Assembly: GCA_023262855.1 (NCBI GenBank)
Contig: JALQYQ010000035.1
Location: 1 to 64,000 of the forward strand
Source: Crocinitomicaceae bacterium
GTDB lineage: Bacteria > Bacteroidota > Bacteroidia > Flavobacteriales_D > Crocinitomicaceae
Length of the DNA stretch: 64,000 bases
Direction: 5' to 3'
Made by a program: the position numbers and the translations under genes. Each line of letters opens with the position of its first letter. Position 1 is the first letter of the stretch. Below the pieces are notes generated by a model. The model saw only the letters and a program-made list of their open reading frames with translations. It did not search any database and was not told the origin of the DNA. This document shows, piece after piece, positions 1 to 10,850 of this stretch.

Positions 1-1
1 A

Positions 2-196
2 GATTCCTCGGTTTTTATTGTATTAGGATCAGTAGTTGTAAAACTGCTTTTAAGCATGGTTTTCGCACTTATTTTTATTTATGGAAATCGAATTGACAAG
101 CTGGGATTTCTAATAAGTTTTTTCCTTCCATATTTTATTTATTCAACCTTTGAAATTTATACGTTATTGTATAACTTGCGCGCTCTTAAAAATTAA
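2..196 (+). CDS. C-terminal end of a small membrane protein upstream of atpB (partial)
   Basis: The second reading frame is open from the window edge to a TAA at 194-196 and encodes about 64 residues, mostly hydrophobic, with two likely membrane segments separated by a short polar turn (GNRIDK). It ends 16 bases before the atpB start on the same strand. In Bacteroidota, small AtpI/AtpZ-like or uncharacterised membrane proteins commonly precede atpB, and this fits that slot. I cannot assign a family from the fragment. The 5' end lies outside the window. Confidence 0.6.
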   Translation, partial: DSSVFIVLGSVVVKLLLSMVFALIFIYGNRIDKLGFLISFFLPYFIYSTFEIYTLLYNLRALKN

Positions 197-212
197 CAAA
201 ATCTTAAAATAG

Positions 213-1352
213 ATGCGCAGAAGTGGCTTTTTTACTAAAAAACTGAATTCATTTTTAATGTTTTCTGCTATTTTTTGTTTTTCTTTTCTTCCTGGCTACA
301 GTAATGAAGTAGAAAATCATTCAGAAAACCATGCAGAAATTGCAGATTCAGCAGCGGTACACGAGGGTGTAAATTCAGATTCTTCACATGCAGAGCACGG
401 CGAAGAGAAATTCAATGCATCAGAATTAATTTTAGAGCATATTGCTGATAGTCATGATTGGCATTTATGGGGACATACTTCAGTTCATTTACCAATAATT
501 TTATACACAGATAAAGGCTTTGAGTGTTTCTCATCAGGTAAATTTAACCATGGACACGATAAGGTAGTTGGTAAGCATTATACATACGCTATTGAGCATG
601 AGCACATTAAAGTTGTAAATGCAGATGGCACTATCAACGAAGAAGCATCAAAAGCTATTGTAGATATTTCAATTACTAAAAACGTGATGTCGATGTTCTT
701 ATCGATGATCATTTTGATGTTAATATTCACATCAGTAGCGTCAGCATACAAGAAAAGAGAAGGTAAAGCACCTAAAGGGTTCCAATCTTTAATCGAGCCG
801 ATTATTTTATTTGTTCGTGATGAGATTGCTAAACCGAACTTAGGTTACAAGTATGCTAGATTCATGCCATTCTTATTAACGATATTCTTCTTCATCTGGG
901 TAAATAACATTATTGGTTTAGTACCATTTTTCCCAGGAGGAGCTAACTTAACAGGAAATATTGCTTTCACAGTAGTAATGGGAGTAATTACATTCATCGT
1001 TACGAATGTGAACGGAAATAAATCATATTGGAAGCATATCTTTTTACCACATGTTCCATGGTGGTTATATCCGATTATGATTCCGGTAGAGATTATCGGG
1101 GTATTATCAAAGCCATTTGCTTTAATTGTCCGTTTGTTTGCAAACATCACAGCGGGTCACATTATCGTATTGAGTTTGATATGCTTAATATTCATTTTCA
1201 AAACAATCATGATTGCACCGGTATCGGTAGGTTTCGTATTGTTTATGGATGTGTTAGAGCTTTTAGTAGCATTTTTACAGGCCTTCATCTTTACAATGTT
1301 AACAGCATTGTTTATCGGAACAGCGGTTGCTGAACCACATGGAGATCATTAA
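213..1352 (+). CDS. atpB: F1Fo ATP synthase subunit a
   Basis: This is the membrane stator subunit that forms the proton half-channels against the c-ring. The 379-residue protein has a hydrophobic, signal-like N-terminus, then a long His/Glu-rich extension (about residues 30-140) usual in Bacteroidota AtpB, then five or more membrane helices. The essential arginine lies in the IVRLFANITAGH segment (about R307), and the conserved C-terminal helix is present. The C-terminus EPHGDH is also usual for the phylum. It is followed after 37 bases by atpE on the same strand. The ATG at 213 gives the signal-like start and is preferred over a later Met at residue 16. Confidence 0.97.
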   Translation: MRRSGFFTKKLNSFLMFSAIFCFSFLPGYSNEVENHSENHAEIADSAAVHEGVNSDSSHAEHGEEKFNASELILEHIADSHDWHLWGHTSVHLPIILYTDKGFECFSSGKFNHGHDKVVGKHYTYAIEHEHIKVVNADGTINEEASKAIVDISITKNVMSMFLSMIILMLIFTSVASAYKKREGKAPKGFQSLIEPIILFVRDEIAKPNLGYKYARFMPFLLTIFFFIWVNNIIGLVPFFPGGANLTGNIAFTVVMGVITFIVTNVNGNKSYWKHIFLPHVPWWLYPIMIPVEIIGVLSKPFALIVRLFANITAGHIIVLSLICLIFIFKTIMIAPVSVGFVLFMDVLELLVAFLQAFIFTMLTALFIGTAVAEPHGDH

Positions 1353-1383
1353 TAGATAGAATTTAATTTTTAACTTAAAATAA

Positions 1384-1599
<216 letters not shown>

Positions 1600-1605
1600 T
1601 CCAAC

Positions 1606-1640
1606 AAAAAGCCTGTTGCGTTTGGCAACGGGCTTTTTTA
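1606..1640 (+). terminator. Intra-operon terminator or attenuator between atpE and atpF
   Basis: The left arm at 1611-1619 (gcctgttgc) pairs with the right arm at 1625-1633 (gcaacgggc) over nine pairs, one of them G-U, with a 5-base loop. Six T follow at 1634-1639. It has the form of an intrinsic terminator but lies inside the atp operon, 43 bases before atpF. Partial termination here would give more atpE than downstream message, matching the high copy number of subunit c. Confidence 0.75.
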
Positions 1641-1682
1641 AGATTCTTGTAATTTAAATTTTAAAAAACATCAAATAAAGAT

Positions 1683-2177
1683 ATGGATATAGTTACTCCA
1701 AGTTTAGGATTGGTATTTTGGACCAGCATTTCTTTCTTATTGTTATTATTCTTGTTAGGCAAGTTCGCTTGGAAACCTATCATGAAAGCATTAGATGAAC
1801 GTGAGCGTTCTATCGAAGAAGCTTTAAGTTCAGCGGAGAAAGCAAAAGAAGAATTAGCGAGATTAAATAACGAAAGCGAGCAATTATTAAAAGAAGCTAG
1901 AGCTGAGCGTGATTTAATTTTGAAAGAAGCTAAACAATTACGTGATAATACAATTGCTGAAGCAAAAGGATTAGCTCAAGTTGAAGCAAACAAGATGATC
2001 GAAAAAGCGAAAGTTGAAATCGATAATCAAAAGAATGCAGCTTTAGCAGAAGTTAAAAATCAAGTTGCTACATTATCAATTGATATCGCAGAAAAAGTAT
2101 TGCGTAAGCAATTAGAAGATAAATCGAAACAAGAAAATTTAGTTGCCGATTTATTAAAAGAAGTGAAGTTAAGCTAA
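1683..2177 (+). CDS. atpF: F1Fo ATP synthase subunit b
   Basis: This is the peripheral stalk subunit that ties subunit a to the F1 head. The 164-residue protein has one N-terminal membrane helix (about residues 8-27) and then a long, highly charged coiled coil rich in Glu, Lys and Ala. This is the standard architecture and length for bacterial subunit b. It lies between the atpE terminator hairpin and atpH in the usual order. The ATG at 1683 begins MDIVTPSLG, a common Bacteroidota b-subunit start. Confidence 0.96.
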   Translation: MDIVTPSLGLVFWTSISFLLLLFLLGKFAWKPIMKALDERERSIEEALSSAEKAKEELARLNNESEQLLKEARAERDLILKEAKQLRDNTIAEAKGLAQVEANKMIEKAKVEIDNQKNAALAEVKNQVATLSIDIAEKVLRKQLEDKSKQENLVADLLKEVKLS

Positions 2178-2205
2178 TTAAAAGCGAAACGAAAAATTAA
2201 AGGAT

Positions 2206-2742
2206 ATGTCAGAAATTAGAGTTGCCACCAGATATGCCAAATCACTAATAGATCTTGCGATTGAACGCAATGAGCTAGAACGTGTAAAGCAAGATATCGA
2301 TTTATTTTTATCTGCTGCTAAATCGAGTTCAGAGTTAGTTGCAGTATTAAAAAATCCTATCGTACCTATTGATAAGAAATTAAAAATAGTGAAAGGTTTA
2401 TTTAGTGCGCAAGTAAGTAATACAACACAATCTTTTTTTGATATCGTAGTGAATAAAGCTAGAGCTGAAGTGCTATATGGTACAGCAGTTGAATTTATTC
2501 ATCAATACAATGAAAAGAAAAATATTCTAAAAGCTAAGATTGTTTCTGCTGTTGCATTAAATGATGCATCGAGAAAAGAAGTAATTAGCATTGTAGAAAA
2601 AGCAACAAGTAAGCAAGTGGTACTTGAAGAGAAAGTAGATGCAAATTTAATTGGAGGTTTCTTATTAACAGTAGGAGATAAACAATTCGATACAAGTATT
2701 GCAAAGAGCTTACAGAATTTAAAAAAGAGTTTTAGTAACTAA
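2206..2742 (+). CDS. atpH: F1Fo ATP synthase subunit delta
   Basis: The delta subunit caps the F1 head and joins it to the b stalk. The 178-residue protein has the N-terminal helical OSCP domain (RVATRYAKSLIDLA near residue 5) and the conserved C-terminal segment ending in the Gly-Gly-Phe motif (LIGGFLLTVGDKQFD, about residues 147-161). Length and position between atpF and atpA are normal. The gap to atpA is 28 bases, with no terminator seen. Confidence 0.96.
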   Translation: MSEIRVATRYAKSLIDLAIERNELERVKQDIDLFLSAAKSSSELVAVLKNPIVPIDKKLKIVKGLFSAQVSNTTQSFFDIVVNKARAEVLYGTAVEFIHQYNEKKNILKAKIVSAVALNDASRKEVISIVEKATSKQVVLEEKVDANLIGGFLLTVGDKQFDTSIAKSLQNLKKSFSN

Positions 2743-2770
2743 TACAAACATTATATAAACACATAATATT

Positions 2771-4345
2771 ATGGTAGAAGTAAGACCAGATGAAGTATCG
2801 GCGATCTTAAGACAGCAATTGTCGGGCTTCAAGTCAGAATCTGAATTAGAAGAAGTTGGTACAGTATTGCAAGTAGGTGATGGTATTGCACGCGTTTACG
2901 GATTGACGAAAGTACAATCAGGTGAGCTTGTGGAATTCGATAACGGTTTGCAAGGTATTGTATTGAACTTAGAAGAAGACAACGTGGGTGTGGTATTGTT
3001 GGGAAGTTCTGATAAGATCAAAGAAGGTGATACTATTAAACGTACAAAGAAAATTGCCTCTATTAAAGTTGGTGATGGAATGTTAGGACGTGTAGTAAAC
3101 ACATTAGGTTTACCTATCGATGGTAAAGGTCCTATTTCAGGTAATTTATATGAGATGCCAATCGAGCGTAAAGCTCCAGGGGTTATCTACCGTCAACCTG
3201 TAAATGAGCCATTACAAACTGGTTTGAAAGCTATCGACGCAATGATTCCAGTAGGTCGTGGACAACGTGAGTTGATCATTGGTGACCGTCAAACAGGTAA
3301 AACAACTGTTGCGATTGATACAATCATTAACCAACGTGAATTCTACGATAGAGGAGAGCCTGTTTTCTGTATCTATGTTGCAATCGGACAAAAAGGTTCA
3401 ACTGTAGCTGGAATCGTTAAGAAATTAGAAGATGCTGGTGCAATGGCATATACAGTAATCGTTGCTGCAAATGCATCAGATCCTGCTACTATGCAGTTCT
3501 ATGCTCCAATGACTGGTGCTGCAATTGGTGAGTTCTTCCGTGATTCTGGACGTCCAGCATTGATTATTTATGATGATTTATCGAAACAAGCGGTAGCTTA
3601 CCGTGAGGTTTCTCTTTTATTACGTCGTCCTCCAGGTCGTGAGGCTTACCCAGGTGACGTATTCTACTTACACTCACGTTTATTGGAAAGAGCTGCGAAA
3701 ATTATCGCTGATGATGCAATTGCTGCTCAAATGAACGATTTACCAGATTCAATTAAGCACTTGGTAAAAGGTTGAGGTTCTTTAACTGCATTACCAATTA
3801 TCGAAACACAGGCGGGTGACGTTTCTGCGTACATTCCAACAAACGTAATTTCGATTACAGACGGACAGATTTTCTTGGAGTCTGATTTATTCAACGCTGG
3901 TATTCGTCCTGCAATCAACGTTGGTATCTCTGTATCACGTGTAGGAGGTAACGCGCAAATTAAATCAATGAAGAAAGTTGCTGGTACCTTGAAATTAGAT
4001 CAAGCACAGTACCGTGAGTTGGAAGCGTTTGCGAAATTTGGATCTGATTTAGATCAAGCAACTAAATCTGTATTGGATAAAGGAGCTCGTAACGTGGAAA
4101 TCTTGAAACAACGTGAAGGAGATCCAATGTCAGTTGAAAAACAAATTGCGATTATCTATGTTGGAACAAAAGGTTTAATGCAAAATGTTCCAGTAAACAA
4201 AGTGAAAGAATTCGAAAAAGAATACTTGAACTATTTAGAGGCAAAACATGCTGATGTATTGGTTGCATTGAAAGCTGGTAAATATACAGATGAGATCACA
4301 GATACATTGACAAAAGTTGCTAAAGAATTAGCTGATAAATACTAA
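2771..4345 (+). pseudogene. atpA: F1Fo ATP synthase subunit alpha, interrupted by an in-frame TGA
   Basis: The frame from ATG 2771 to TAA 4345 encodes a full-length alpha subunit of about 524 codons. The Walker A motif GDRQTGKT lies near residues 171-178 and the C-terminal alpha/beta domain is intact. Codon 335, at 3773-3775, is TGA. The flanking codons read K-G-stop-G-S-L-T-A-L-P, where the family has the invariant GGGSLTALP, so the stop replaces Gly. One base change, GGA to TGA, explains it, and the frame is kept on both sides. Read literally, the product would be a 334-residue fragment without the end of the catalytic-interface domain and the C-terminal bundle. Because alpha is indispensable to the complex and the rest is undamaged, a sequencing or assembly error, or a recent mutation, is more likely than an old pseudogene. 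Confidence 0.9.
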
Positions 4346-4359
4346 ACAATTTTGAATTT

Positions 4360-4388
4360 GGGATTCGTGATTTCTAATTACGAATCCC
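4360..4388. repeat. Inverted repeat between atpA and atpG
   Basis: Perfect 9-base arms gggattcgt (4360-4368) and acgaatccc (4380-4388) flank an 11-base loop. There is no T-tract, so it is not a classical terminator. The reverse complement of its core (aattagaaatcac) recurs just after atpG at about 5363-5375, so the element seems to be a small intergenic repeat bracketing atpG in opposite orientations. Confidence 0.55.
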
Positions 4389-4412
4389 GAATCCTGAATC
4401 TTGAATTATATT

Positions 4413-5288
4413 ATGCCAAGTTTAAAGGAAATACGAAATAGAATCACCTCAGTAGGTTCAACAATGCAAATCACTTCAGCAATGAAGATGGTGTCTGCTG
4501 CAAAGTTGAAAAGAGCGCAAGATGCAATTACACAAATGCGTCCTTACTCTGAAAAACTACAAGAGATTCTTAGCAATTTAAGTGCAACCTTGGATTTATC
4601 TGAAAACGCATTTTCTGACACACGCGAAGTGAAAAACGTATTGATCGTTGGTATTACTTCAAATCGTGGATTGTGTGGTGGTTTTAATAATAATGTTATT
4701 AAACGTGTTACGCAATTGGTGAATGAAGAATACAAAGATGCAAATCCACGTGTTCTTTGTTTAGGAAAGAAAATTCGCGATTCTTACAAACGTTCTGATG
4801 CTTATTTCATCAATGATGCTTTGGAGCCTGTGGAAGATATTTTCAATGCATTGAATTTCGAAAACACAACTGTAATTGCAAACGAATTGATGCGCATGTT
4901 TACAGCGAAAGAGTTCGATAAAGTAGTTGTGGTTTATAACCGTTTCGTTAACGCAGCGACACAAGATGTTCGTACTGAACAATACTTGCCAATTGTTCCA
5001 ACAGTTCAAGAAGATAGTTCATCTGCTGGTGATTATATTTTCGAACCAACGAAGGCTGAAATTGTTGCTGATTTGATTCCTAAATCGTTGAAAATTCAAT
5101 TGTTTAAAGGATTGTTAGATTCGAATGCTGCTGAACACGGAGCTCGTATGACAGCAATGCACAAAGCAACAGATAATGCAAGTGAATTACAAAAAAGCTT
5201 GAAATTGTCTTACAATAAAGCGCGTCAAGCAGCAATTACTAACGAGATCTTAGAAATCGTTGGTGGTGCTGAAGCATTGAATAGTTAA
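4413..5288 (+). CDS. atpG: F1Fo ATP synthase subunit gamma
   Basis: This is the central rotor shaft subunit. From ATG 4413 the product is 291 residues and begins MPSLKEIRNRI, the usual gamma start; an in-frame TTG at 4401 is less likely. The N-terminal helix has the conserved ITSAMKMVSAAKL segment, and the C-terminal helix ends with the conserved KARQAAITNEILEIVGGAEAL region. Length is normal for the family. It is the last gene of the cluster and is followed by a strong terminator. The beta and epsilon genes (atpD, atpC) are not here, as expected for the split Bacteroidota arrangement. Confidence 0.97.
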   Translation: MPSLKEIRNRITSVGSTMQITSAMKMVSAAKLKRAQDAITQMRPYSEKLQEILSNLSATLDLSENAFSDTREVKNVLIVGITSNRGLCGGFNNNVIKRVTQLVNEEYKDANPRVLCLGKKIRDSYKRSDAYFINDALEPVEDIFNALNFENTTVIANELMRMFTAKEFDKVVVVYNRFVNAATQDVRTEQYLPIVPTVQEDSSSAGDYIFEPTKAEIVADLIPKSLKIQLFKGLLDSNAAEHGARMTAMHKATDNASELQKSLKLSYNKARQAAITNEILEIVGGAEALNS

Positions 5289-5310
5289 GAAACAATTTCT
5301 CAAGTCATAA

Positions 5311-5345
5311 AAAAAGCAGTATCGAACTTCGGTACTGCTTTTTTG
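5311..5345 (+). terminator. Terminator of the atp operon
   Basis: The stem gcagtatcgaa (5316-5326) pairs with ttcggtactgc (5329-5339), preceded by an A-run and followed by five T. It closes the plus-strand ATP synthase cluster and, because of the flanking A-run, may also serve the convergent minus-strand hydrolase. Confidence 0.8.
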
Positions 5346-5390
5346 TTTTTTAAAGAATCACGAATTAGAAATCACAAATCACAAATCGTG

Positions 5391-6152
5391 CTAACGTAAG
5401 CAAAATCCCAACACCGTATCAATAAATTCGTCCGGCGCTTCTGCATGCACCCAGTGTCCAGCTCCAAGGATTGTTTTTAGTTCTGAATCTGGAAAAAGTT
5501 CTTCCAATTCGTCAATGTCTTCATCTAAAATATAATTCGATAATTCTCCTCGAATAAACAATGTAGGAAGCATTACTTCGTGTTCTGGAATACGAGACAG
5601 AATATTTTCCATTTCGCGCTCTAAAACGCTTAAATTCATTCTCCAGGCTAATTGACCTTTCTCTTTCCAATACAAATTCTTCAAAAGGAATTGACGCACG
5701 CCTTCTGAGTCAATGTGCAACTTTAAAATAGCTTCAGCCTCACTACGAACTTTGATAGCATCCAAATCAATTGCGTGCATTCCTGCAAGAATATGTTGGT
5801 GGTGCATTGGATAGGACTTAGCGCCAATGTCAACAACTATCAATTTTTCCAATAACGATGCGTTTTGTTGGGCGAAAAGCATTGCTACTTTGCCGCCCAT
5901 TGAATGACCAAGTAAAATAGATTTTTTCAAATCTAAATCATTGTATAACTCTTTCAAGTCGTCGACCATAAGCTGATAGGAAAATTCATCAGACCAAGGA
6001 GAATGTCCATGATTTCTTAAATCCACCAAAATCACACGGTAATATTCGGCCAATTTCTTTGCATGTGTTTGCCAATTATCAGAAAAACCGAACAAACCAT
6101 GTAAAATAACCATTGGTTGTCCTTCTCCTAATTCGCGGTAATGAAGTTTCAT
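5391..6152 (-). CDS. Alpha/beta-fold hydrolase, YbfF-like esterase
   Basis: This is a 253-residue cytoplasmic alpha/beta hydrolase. The oxyanion segment HGLFG lies near residues 18-22. The nucleophile elbow GHSMGG places Ser at about residue 84. The likely catalytic His is in GAGHWVHAE near residue 234, and the conserved DLRNHGHS loop is at about 44-51. The overall pattern matches the YbfF acyl-CoA/ester hydrolase group, but the substrate cannot be told from sequence. It is convergent with atpG and stands alone; the next upstream gene on the strand begins far to the right. Confidence 0.85.
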   Translation of the reverse strand: MKLHYRELGEGQPMVILHGLFGFSDNWQTHAKKLAEYYRVILVDLRNHGHSPWSDEFSYQLMVDDLKELYNDLDLKKSILLGHSMGGKVAMLFAQQNASLLEKLIVVDIGAKSYPMHHQHILAGMHAIDLDAIKVRSEAEAILKLHIDSEGVRQFLLKNLYWKEKGQLAWRMNLSVLEREMENILSRIPEHEVMLPTLFIRGELSNYILDEDIDELEELFPDSELKTILGAGHWVHAEAPDEFIDTVLGFCLR

Positions 6153-6290: not shown

Positions 6291-9200
6291 TTAATTTTTA
6301 ATCAATTGCTTTATTTCTGTATTATCCAATAAATCAGAACGCATGATCAATGTGTAAATTCCTTTTGCAAGTTCATTTAAGTTAATGTTATAACTATTTG
6401 AGCCTGCATGAGCGTCATATTCATATTGCGCTATCAATCTTCCTGAATTATCATACATAGAAACAGAAATCGTTCCTTTACGTGCAGTAGTTAAATCAAA
6501 ATTAACGGATGAATTTGCCGGATTAGGGAATAATTCAGACAAAATTGTTTGATCCAAAGATCTGTTCAATGCAATTGTTTGTGAATAGCTGTACTGTCCA
6601 TCAAAATCCGTTTGCTTCAAGCGGTAATAATTAATTCCTTGATAAGGATTATAATCAAATTCTTGATAGTTCAAATGGGTTGTACTATTTCCTGCTCCGT
6701 CAACAATGGCAATTTCTTCAAAATCAATTCCATTTCTTGAACGCTCTAATGTGAAATAATCATTGTTATGCTCACTGACAGTTGTCCAAGTCAACAAATT
6801 ATCTTCTCCAACCATTTCACCCATAAAATTGATAAGTTCAATTGGAAGTGGTGTTGCTGATTGTGCCACTCCGAACACAGAAAAACCTGAAAGGCCATTT
6901 CTATTTACTTGGGTTGAAGTTGATGCTGCACATGTTCCATCAAGAATCCACCCTGGCATTGGTCCAATTGCTGGTTTTTTCATAATGGTCCAACCTGAAT
7001 AGATATTTGTAACATTCGTTGGATAAAGTGACATATTGTAAGTTGATGCAGTATTTGGAGTTGCTGTCAATGTCCAGTAACCATTGTTCATTGCATCCAT
7101 GCTAAAGGTTGTTCCACAATCTGTACCGCCTTGAACTGGTGGTAAGATAGACCAAATGTCAAATCTAGAATCAATATAAGTATTTGTGTTAGATGTGAAT
7201 GCTGTAACTGCACGTTGGAATCCTTTTGTAACATTTCCTACAGGCCAGTTATAAGTTCCCGAAGCTGCAGTGTAACGTCTTAAATTTCCATCAACGAAAC
7301 TTGTTGTAGTTCCAGTTGACACAGAGGCAGGTGTCGAATTGTTAACTTCCACTCTCAGAGCGCCAGTAGTAATCGTACCTTGATTAAAGGTAAGTGTTCC
7401 TGTCGTAGCACGAATGAACATGTTCGTTTGAAGATTAACACCTGAACCAATTGCTCCTGTGTTATTCATGATAACATTGTTCAAATCTAATTGTGTTGAA
7501 CCTTGGTTGTAGTTTTGAACTCCTGATCCATTAAATTCTAATGTACCAGCTAAAACAGGTGGTCCAGCAAGGTACGTATTCGAATAGGTTGAATTTCCGT
7601 TTGCATTGTAGAAGTTTCCTCCAATTGTAACATATTTACCATTTGAATTGAAGATACTCGTATTGTTTGTTGTTGTAAACGTACCAGCAATTTCAATATC
7701 ATTATTCAAAACAACTGTACCAGCAGATTTTGTAACTGTAAGATTTCCAAATTTACTTGTCCCAACAAGGTTACCAGTTACATTTTGAGTTCCTGATCCC
7801 ATGAATAAAATGGTAGATGTAGGATGACAAACAACCGTTCCGTAGTTCGTAAAGTTTCCACAAACTTGTAGTACAGAATTAGCTTGTAATGTAAGTGTTG
7901 CTCCTGGCTGAATTGTAATATCTCGCACCGCTCTTGTTGTAGACGCAGCAACGATTGGTTCATTAGCTACTGCAGCAACGAAGGCATCAATTCCACAAGT
8001 TGGTGAATTACATCCTCCCCAATTGTTCACATTATTCACCTCAGTTGGTGTAGTTGCATCACCGCCAGACCAATATACTTCAGCAGTTCCAGTTGCAGCG
8101 GCATAATTGATAACTGCATTTCCTCCTCCAGTTAAAAATTCAATTCTAAAACCAGAAGTACTATTTGAGAAATTACTTACTGCAATTAGATATTCATCTC
8201 CAGCCACAGCATTGATTGTAGGTTCATATGCTGCAGAATAAGTTGTAGAAGGATTATATCCACCACCACATTGCGGACAAACTGTTCCTGATAGACTTGA
8301 AGGGGCATTTCCTCCGGTACCTACACCAGTTACTCCTAAATAGGAATAGTTACAAGCAATTGGAGGAGCTGTACCTGCAGCAATTTGAGAACAATTGTAA
8401 AAATCCGTTCCTAATACACCGCCCGAACCATTTGCAGTTTGCCATACTCCAAAATCATAATCTGTTGAACTTTCAGAGGCAGAAATGAAATCATTTGGAA
8501 CAATGTTGAAATTTAATGTACCTCCTGTTGAAATTGGAACTCTATACCAAACTACATTTCTTTCTCCTGATGCCAAACAATAAGATGTTGGGATATCACA
8601 AATATTTCCATTTCCGCTATAACCGGGATTTGAGACAGACATTGTAGATTGACAAACTGGATTTGGTTGGCTACAATCTTGACCTTGAATTCCAGGTAAA
8701 ACAGTAACGGTAGGATCAATAGCAGTTATTGTAAAGTTTCCAGTAGCGTTCGATTCACCATCAACACGAATGTAAACGGTTGTTCCTGCTGACCCTGTAA
8801 TTGTCAATTGTGACATATAATTGGTAGAGTTTCCACAATACCCAATATCTGTATTCGCACTTAGGAAAGTTAAACTTGCACATGTACCACTATAAGCTGC
8901 AATTTGTGTATTCGTTAATGTTCCTGCAGTCGTTTTAACAAACAATTGACCAGATGCAGGTATTACAGCACTGAACCATACAGTATTAACGTTACCAGTT
9001 GTCCATGCTGCAGGTACTGCTGGTTCGCCTAAACCTCCTGTACAATTGTTGTCACCAAATATAGATGTTCCAAGTGGAATTGCTGTTGCTCCAGCGCAAA
9101 CATCGTTGGAAGGAGTTCCTCCTAATGAAGTAAGTTGAATGTCATAATTAACAAAAGAAGGCGAAGACCATGTATCAACAATGACATAATAGGTTCCTGC

Positions 9201-10850
9201 TGCTGGAACAGTAAATGAGCCTGTTAAAGTTCCACTAGTTGCTCCACCACCATTCGAAATACAAGTTGTACCCGCAGTTCCAGGACAACCAGCATAGACT
9301 TGATAACCAATGTATGAAGAACTTGCATTTGAAAGAACCAAACTCAAGCAATCAGGGCCAGTTGTAGTAAAGGCATAGACTTTATCTTCACCTGATTCGT
9401 ATAACGTACCACATGATCCAAGACTGGCATTTGAATAATCATTTCCAAAGCAAAGTGTTGATTGACCCGTAGCTGTATAAGGTAAAGTCATGTTTACAGG
9501 GTTAGAACAAGTTGTTCCTGCTGGAATTCCTCCTGTAGGTGTTGAAATAGTTAAGGAGTAAGCGTTACAAGTTGGACTTGGCCATGAATCCACTACTAAG
9601 TAATAGGTTTGACCTGCCACGACAGCTGCACAACCAATCGCTTGATTTCCTGCTGAACTTTGACTGTAGGCAACGCACGTTCCTCCTGTAGTCGGACAAC
9701 CCTGATACAATGTGATACCTACATAAGAACCTGTTGAAGTTAAATTTATTGAGATATTACCACTTGTACTTGGAACAAATGAAATCACATGATCTTCACC
9801 GCCATAATATAAGCTAGAACCGCAAACTGCGCTATTCGTAGAAGTGATATCGTCTCCTTTTCCACAAGTTGTTTGTGCACCAGATGAGTAAGGAAGTGAA
9901 ACTCCCAAAAGGTTACCACTTCCTAAGGTACATGCCGCAGAAGTACTTGTTATACAAATTGTGAAAGAGTTAGAAGCGCTTACACCTTCTCCAGCACCAT
10001 TATGATAGACACGAACATAATAAGTTGTTCCAATAGTAAGACCAGTTAAGCTGACAACTTCAGCGACACCACTTCCTGTGGCATTAACGCATTGCATTGA
10101 AGTTAAAGTGCCAGCACAAGTTCCAGACATAATCTGAACAACCGCATTGAAACCTGCAATTCCTGTTACTGTTACCTGATGAGTCGTACTATTTGCAACA
10201 AACGTATACCAAACATCATCGTCTGCAATTCCAGTACAAGTAGCTTGTGATGAAGCTGTTGCTCCAAAAGTTGTTCCATTAGTCGCGGTACAGATTCCTG
10301 AACCAGCAGGAGCGGGTGTTAATAAAGTTGGAGTTCCACAATTATCATTCGATGGAATTACAGGACAGGCAGTTGTAGTAACATTATAACCTGTGGTCCA
10401 AGAATTTGTACCTCCTGAGTCATTTGTAACAACAACGGTACATGTTATTCCGGCAATTGACGGTCCATTTTTAACATTTGCAATTACAATTGTAAAAGCC
10501 GCGTTTTTACCAACATTTACTCCTGCTGGAGTTGTAAAAGATATGGTTGTCGCGGTTTGAGTAGTAAACGCCGTTATAGCAGTTCCTTTGTAAGAACTAC
10601 CAGCAACTGTTGCTGTCGTCGCGTCAGTACCTGCAGGAAAAGTTATTGTTACCACTTTAGTGGCACTTTGTTTAGAATCATTATGGTTATAAGTAGTTTG
10701 ACTGAACGTGTAATTTGAAAGTGCACATCCTTGAGTACTGGACATAGATAGACTCGTACCAATCAAAGTATAATTAGTTGCATTTGCATTAATACTGGTA
10801 AGAATGCAAAAAGATAATATAGTTAATTTAAAAATATTGATAGCTTTCAT
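6291..10850 (-). CDS. Very large T9SS-secreted protein with PPC-like repeat domains
   Basis: The 1519-residue protein starts with a signal peptide (about residues 1-24). It has a series of Cys-containing beta domains: one begins near residue 165 (SNDNCGTPTLL), and two obvious homologous repeats lie at about 325-437 and 460-577, with GEDHVISF / GEDKVYAF and YYLVVDSW / YYVIVDTW. Another SND-type unit starts near 580. These resemble bacterial pre-peptidase C-terminal type domains. A beta-rich middle is followed by a T9SS type A sorting domain (LFPNPANSSVNFDL to the C-terminus, about the last 80 residues). It should be exported through the inner membrane and across the outer membrane by T9SS, to the surface or medium. 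No catalytic site was recognised, so an adhesin or matrix role is only inference. A small exported protein gene lies 14 bases upstream. Confidence 0.85.
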   Translation of the reverse strand: MKAINIFKLTILSFCILTSINANATNYTLIGTSLSMSSTQGCALSNYTFSQTTYNHNDSKQSATKVVTITFPAGTDATTATVAGSSYKGTAITAFTTQTATTISFTTPAGVNVGKNAAFTIVIANVKNGPSIAGITCTVVVTNDSGGTNSWTTGYNVTTTACPVIPSNDNCGTPTLLTPAPAGSGICTATNGTTFGATASSQATCTGIADDDVWYTFVANSTTHQVTVTGIAGFNAVVQIMSGTCAGTLTSMQCVNATGSGVAEVVSLTGLTIGTTYYVRVYHNGAGEGVSASNSFTICITSTSAACTLGSGNLLGVSLPYSSGAQTTCGKGDDITSTNSAVCGSSLYYGGEDHVISFVPSTSGNISINLTSTGSYVGITLYQGCPTTGGTCVAYSQSSAGNQAIGCAAVVAGQTYYLVVDSWPSPTCNAYSLTISTPTGGIPAGTTCSNPVNMTLPYTATGQSTLCFGNDYSNASLGSCGTLYESGEDKVYAFTTTGPDCLSLVLSNASSSYIGYQVYAGCPGTAGTTCISNGGGATSGTLTGSFTVPAAGTYYVIVDTWSSPSFVNYDIQLTSLGGTPSNDVCAGATAIPLGTSIFGDNNCTGGLGEPAVPAAWTTGNVNTVWFSAVIPASGQLFVKTTAGTLTNTQIAAYSGTCASLTFLSANTDIGYCGNSTNYMSQLTITGSAGTTVYIRVDGESNATGNFTITAIDPTVTVLPGIQGQDCSQPNPVCQSTMSVSNPGYSGNGNICDIPTSYCLASGERNVVWYRVPISTGGTLNFNIVPNDFISASESSTDYDFGVWQTANGSGGVLGTDFYNCSQIAAGTAPPIACNYSYLGVTGVGTGGNAPSSLSGTVCPQCGGGYNPSTTYSAAYEPTINAVAGDEYLIAVSNFSNSTSGFRIEFLTGGGNAVINYAAATGTAEVYWSGGDATTPTEVNNVNNWGGCNSPTCGIDAFVAAVANEPIVAASTTRAVRDITIQPGATLTLQANSVLQVCGNFTNYGTVVCHPTSTILFMGSGTQNVTGNLVGTSKFGNLTVTKSAGTVVLNNDIEIAGTFTTTNNTSIFNSNGKYVTIGGNFYNANGNSTYSNTYLAGPPVLAGTLEFNGSGVQNYNQGSTQLDLNNVIMNNTGAIGSGVNLQTNMFIRATTGTLTFNQGTITTGALRVEVNNSTPASVSTGTTTSFVDGNLRRYTAASGTYNWPVGNVTKGFQRAVTAFTSNTNTYIDSRFDIWSILPPVQGGTDCGTTFSMDAMNNGYWTLTATPNTASTYNMSLYPTNVTNIYSGWTIMKKPAIGPMPGWILDGTCAASTSTQVNRNGLSGFSVFGVAQSATPLPIELINFMGEMVGEDNLLTWTTVSEHNNDYFTLERSRNGIDFEEIAIVDGAGNSTTHLNYQEFDYNPYQGINYYRLKQTDFDGQYSYSQTIALNRSLDQTILSELFPNPANSSVNFDLTTARKGTISVSMYDNSGRLIAQYEYDAHAGSNSYNINLNELAKGIYTLIMRSDLLDNTEIKQLIKN

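Follow-up and report, generated by a model that had tools for sequence, protein, structure and literature searches.

A TGA codon within a composite atpA reading frame of a Crocinitomicaceae draft genome: a probable assembly artefact rather than new decoding

A TGA at a conserved glycine codon of atpA

The window analysed here comprises the first 64,000 nucleotides of C35, a contig in a draft genome assigned to a Crocinitomicaceae bacterium (bin G000, 73 contigs), and it raises the question of whether a TGA codon inside the gene for the ATP synthase alpha subunit, atpA, is decoded, is a genuine nonsense mutation, or is an error of sequence or assembly. As a preliminary description had stated, the TGA is in frame: it occupies window positions 3773–3775, corresponding to codon 335 of the atpA frame 2771–4345, and is the sole internal stop of that frame. 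Residues 1–334, which precede it, match TIGR00962 above the cut-off. The claim that the site is that of an invariant glycine was likewise borne out, with a glycine codon (GGN) in 46/46 aligned rows from relatives covering the codon, representing 43 distinct places; this count preceded, and so omits, 80 named loci, all of which are included in the binned and patch comparisons below and three of which are in the protein comparison. Beyond 3257, the T at 3773 is the sole change among 645 sites that are invariant in other same-genus atpA genes. These genus-invariant sites were defined from the 19 other full-length same-genus copies, a set that omits the incomplete copies of G018, G019, G020, G021 and G023, the second piece from G013, and G007 (distant match only). 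The perfect frame on both sides of the stop does not prove that a single gene is present, because assemblies can cross species at strongly conserved genes.

UGA as a stop codon in the draft genome

The glycine found in every aligned row would suit decoding of UGA 335 as an amino acid, either by programmed readthrough or by glycine recoding of the type known from Gracilibacteria and Absconditabacteria, as would a TGA found in frame at atpA codon 19 in G028 (locus L043, G028:C274, reverse strand 2946–2948), a genome of another genus in the same family, at a site where the window atpA has glycine. Against this, RF2 (prfB, TIGR00020), the loss of which would be expected under code 25, is present with 473.1 bits versus a cut-off of 370; RF1 is present too, above its cut-off. 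TGA is also a common terminator, ending 34 of the 243 stop-bounded frames of at least 250 codons in 474,001 bases (TAA 192, TAG 17), these long frames being candidate genes. A selenocysteine site would be expected to involve SelA, and a selenocysteine or readthrough site to be kept as UGA in relatives; SelA gave 0 matches in the bin's own genome, and the codon is TGA in 0/46 of the relative rows. No UCA tRNA was found in a partial search covering 21 tRNAs (150 of 302 candidates scored) and 20 of 24 pattern places.

Surveys of in-frame stops point in the same direction. The first returned 58 candidates (TAA 38, TGA 17, TAG 3), most of which looked like shadow frames, and a refined version returned 22 (TAA 19, TGA 2, TAG 1), many of them with a Met shortly past the stop, as expected for neighbouring genes sharing a frame. 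This refined survey used coding potential and covered 533,187 of 3,276,542 bases; of its 2 in-frame TGA candidates, the one in atpA is strong and the other (L170:19251) has a weak upstream coding score (0.21). Under code 25, UGA would be expected in frame at many glycine sites across the genome. Given the presence of RF2, the frequency of TGA as a terminator, the absence of SelA matches and the lone strong in-frame TGA in the 533 kb surveyed, we rejected global recoding of UGA. The preliminary description had also held that TGA is a genuine stop and that the code is not globally changed, which agrees with the 34 of 243 frames; one of its examples, however, was atpE, which lies in the foreign stub described below, and the TGA stop of that gene is therefore uninformative about the bin's organism.

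A scan for stops in other atpA genes, in 60 genomes and then in 399 genomes of the order (372 matched), identified internal stops in at least three genomes among the matches listed: the present bin, G028, and G060 (L214, G060:C12), a genome listed as 100% complete that has an in-frame TAG at codon 267. A TAA in G056 belonged to a match at 27% identity, taken for a paralogue, and was set aside. No recoded site recurs in common among the matches listed. That two of the three stops are TGA codons at glycine sites is the one point in favour of a common mechanism; all three lie at different sites, so that sporadic errors fit better. Readthrough of UGA in an essential ATP-synthase subunit would be striking if true, and nothing here supports it; the preliminary description likewise ranked it last. 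We regard decoding of UGA 335 as an amino acid as extremely improbable, and we give next to no credence to the form of it in which glycine would be inserted at the codon, or the codon passed over, at a low frequency, with regulated readthrough setting the supply of alpha subunit.

Two lineages within one atpA frame

The atpA in the window is a composite of at least two lineages. The parts of the locus are as follows, with G002 denoting the same-genus genome used for comparison (atp locus L024/L097).

2771–4345, + strand: composite atpA frame, 525 codons including the final stop, with one internal stop
1–3256, + strand: foreign stub at the start of C35, Sphingobacteriales-like by nucleotide and protein identity
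within 1–3256, + strand: AtpI-like gene in the foreign stub, end only, named by position
213–1352, + strand: atpB, in the foreign stub
1390–1599, + strand: atpE, in the foreign stub
1683–2177, + strand: atpF, in the foreign stub
2206–2742, + strand: atpH, in the foreign stub
2771 to about 3256, + strand: first approximately 162 codons of atpA, in the foreign stub
3257–3273, + strand: junction interval between the foreign stub and same-genus sequence, set by mismatch positions
3257–3746, + strand: same-genus segment of atpA, 96.5% to G002, 0 of 302 genus-invariant sites changed
3747–3916, + strand: divergent patch holding the TGA, 85.3% to G002 and 86.5% to the best same-genus copy (flanks 96.5% and 96.9%)
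3917–4345, + strand: same-genus 3′ segment of atpA, 96.9% to G002 (over 3917–4342), 0 of 239 genus-invariant sites changed
4413–5288, + strand: atpG of same-genus type, 99% protein identity to G002, TIGR01146 above cut-off

Comparison of window positions 1–6000, in bins, with the fetched atp loci (loci of the bin itself being omitted except that of C48) reveals a sharp change of nearest relative inside atpA. Over 1–3200, locus L087 is 82–99% identical to the window by bin at the nucleotide level, versus 81% or less, or no alignment, for the same-genus loci. The nearest sequences up to about 3256 are L087 (uncultured bacterium, Loc090519-6m bin) and L088 (Sphingobacteriales WC_5), with DNA identity to L087 reaching 99% in atpE and 92% in atpF. 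Past 3385, L087 falls to 67–90% and G002 rises from 75% to 91–98%, with one bin at 86%; from about 3257 onwards the window is approximately 97% identical to G002 outside 3747–3916. The proteins follow the same division: those of the stub are 87–99% identical to L087 versus 33–90% to G002, G016, G025 and G006 (AtpB, 88% to L087 and 50% to G002), and AtpG is 99% identical to G002 over 280 residues and 55% to L087. Before 3257, atpA is changed at 26 of 288 genus-invariant sites, compared with at most 6 of 294 in other same-genus copies. The last mismatch to G002 before the switch is at 3256 and L087 first departs from the window thereafter at 3274; the two nearest relatives and the sharp boundary at 3257–3273 are those expected of a chimeric contig. 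The description of atpA as otherwise intact thus stands with respect to the reading frame, which is open, but not with respect to the gene, which is a mosaic. Farther along the window, the minus strand of 6291–10850 encodes a 1519-residue secreted-looking repeat protein, the C-terminal end of which we take to resemble a putative type IX secretion sorting domain.

The half of the operon that the genus would be expected to contribute is found on another contig of the same bin. C48 carries an AtpI-like frame (named by position), atpB, atpE, atpF, atpH and 204 codons of an atpA that runs off the contig end at a position equal to window 3384, so that, as in a chimeric assembly, the native half ends elsewhere near the same site. 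In all four same-genus genomes examined (G002, G016, G025 and G006), the genes of C48 lead within one atp operon into those of C35, i.e. the 3′ part of atpA, atpG and then a hydrolase-like gene (which in G002 lies on the neighbouring stretch, L212); the native parts are therefore contiguous in 4/4 relatives, again as expected if the contig is chimeric. The C48 sequence departs from the G002 type from about the equivalent of 3221–3270 on, with 30 mismatches over the 164 bases that correspond to window 3221–3384 versus 9 over the preceding 450, and its last 20 bases are identical to window 3365–3384, as at a graph fork. Since C48 holds a genus-type 5′ half and the operon is contiguous in relatives, the simplest reading is that the window starts with a misjoined stub from another organism, spanning the first 3.26 kb, and that the rest of C35, beyond about 3257, belongs with C48.

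The same comparison bears on the proposal that the gene is a natural recombinant, in which the cell acquired a Sphingobacteriales-type operon start that became joined within atpA to the cell's own 3′ half, C48 being derived from a contaminating same-genus strain. The frame is open across the junction, conserved stretches promote recombination too, and the contamination estimate for the bin, 2.89%, could accommodate such a strain. However, C48 AtpB, AtpF and AtpH are 98–99% identical to G002, as is C35 AtpG (98.6%), and proteins of the two contigs that are equally distant from G002 both fit one organism. The two sides are, moreover, contiguous in relatives, the junction lies just 3.26 kb from the start of C35, and the end of C48 falls close to it. 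We consider natural recombination at the junction very unlikely.

A further proposal, already advanced in the preliminary description, is a nonsense mutation accompanied by another copy of atpA. A second intact atpA was sought in the bin's own genome with PF00006, which gave 6 matches, and with the atpA protein, and was rejected; apart from the window's own gene, the only close atpA in the bin is the fragment on C48. A second atpA is thus present as proposed, but it comprises the 5′ part only and, rather than a spare copy, appears to be the 5′ half of the same-genus gene, displaced to another contig. If the mutation were real in the sampled population, the alpha subunit would end at 334 residues and the cells would live without this ATP synthase or use another. 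A single substitution explains the codon and is the only change at a genus-invariant site past 3257; yet no other stop occurs in the atpA frame, codon 335 lies inside a gene that looks misassembled, and the sole second atpA is the apparent displaced half. A genuine nonsense mutation is, in our view, very unlikely.

Elsewhere in the bin, contigs C64 (L008, 8124–8382) and C42 (L009, 1–259) share 91 identical bases in what we take to be an atpD-like gene, then diverge, with 82% identity over 259 bases; this is likely to be a second place where the assembly forked within a conserved gene of the ATP synthase. Six atpA pieces from related draft genomes (L044–L049) end at a contig edge, five of them at codons 154–224, near the position of the window junction, and the pieces in L023, L031 and L039 break off at codons 495, 370 and 382, respectively.

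The sequence around the stop and comparison with known systems

The TGA amounts to one anomalous base in a stretch that agrees poorly with its flanks. Between 3747 and 3905, 24 of 159 bases differ from G002, versus 32 of 931 in the rest of 3256–4345 (Fisher p = 1.2e-7), and the segment score was reached in 0 of 2000 codon shuffles, which are the fairer control because the segment was delimited from the data. Only 1 of 104 genus-invariant sites is changed within 3747–3916, namely the TGA base; retention of these sites favours a functional gene as the source and is compatible with natural recombination. A search for the source of 3747–3905 in the fetched loci and 395 genomes of the phylum (312 matched) gave best matches of 90–91%, over part of the segment only. 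The patch probably reflects either a further change of assembly path or a consensus of mixed sequences. At window 3546–3556, a group of closely spaced bases in G002 (L024) departs from the window, whereas G003 and G016 mostly agree with it there, and the G002 atpA may have a patch of its own there.

Taking these results together, we consider it highly probable that the TGA is a metagenome assembly artefact rather than new decoding. Sequence or assembly error, one of the options of the preliminary description, is hence the favoured one, the contig having the appearance of a join between organisms inside atpA. An assembler would have crossed at a strongly conserved stretch of atpA, at about 3240–3385, joining the Sphingobacteriales-like 5′ half of the operon to the 3′ half of the bin's genus and stranding the native 5′ half at the end of C48; the stop would be an erroneous or mixed base inside the tangle at 3747–3916. 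Four things are observed: atpA is a mosaic, its native 5′ half lies on another contig, four relatives have the operon in one piece, and a divergent patch surrounds the TGA. We infer the metagenome origin, that the joins were made during assembly and did not arise in living cells, and that the TGA is a wrong or mixed base. Some observations sit less comfortably with this account: the TGA may be a simple base error unrelated to the mosaic, the patch could have been made by natural recombination between related species, and the AtpI-like protein of C48 is 83% identical to that of G002 despite the 98–99% of its AtpB, AtpF and AtpH. As biology, the TGA in atpA carries little weight.

UGA encodes glycine in Gracilibacteria and Absconditabacteria, according to PMC4032931 and PMC8629427, the latter also describing two Gracilibacteria-labelled species that lack a UCA tRNA, have RF2, and in which UGA is taken as a stop. 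The present case resembles these systems in the occurrence of UGA at a conserved glycine. In contrast to them, it consists of one strong instance in 533 kb, in a genome with RF2 and with TGA as an ordinary stop, and the partial tRNA search yielded no UCA tRNA. Among the matches listed for UGA, glycine and readthrough in the literature (titles and the starts of abstracts), none appeared to be a bacterial atpA case.

A closer parallel is provided by chimeric metagenome contigs. PMC7111523 and PMC8172020 report cross-organism joins and local assembly errors in metagenome-assembled genomes, the former calling cross-organism chimeras rare and the latter noting that k-mer graphs may contain paths matching no real genome. 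Chimeras of this kind are usually proven by read coverage and pairing, unlike here, where the argument is made from sequence comparison. The likeness to the systems outlined in those papers lies in the sharp change of relatives at a conserved stretch of one contig, and in the displaced half at the end of another, here C48.
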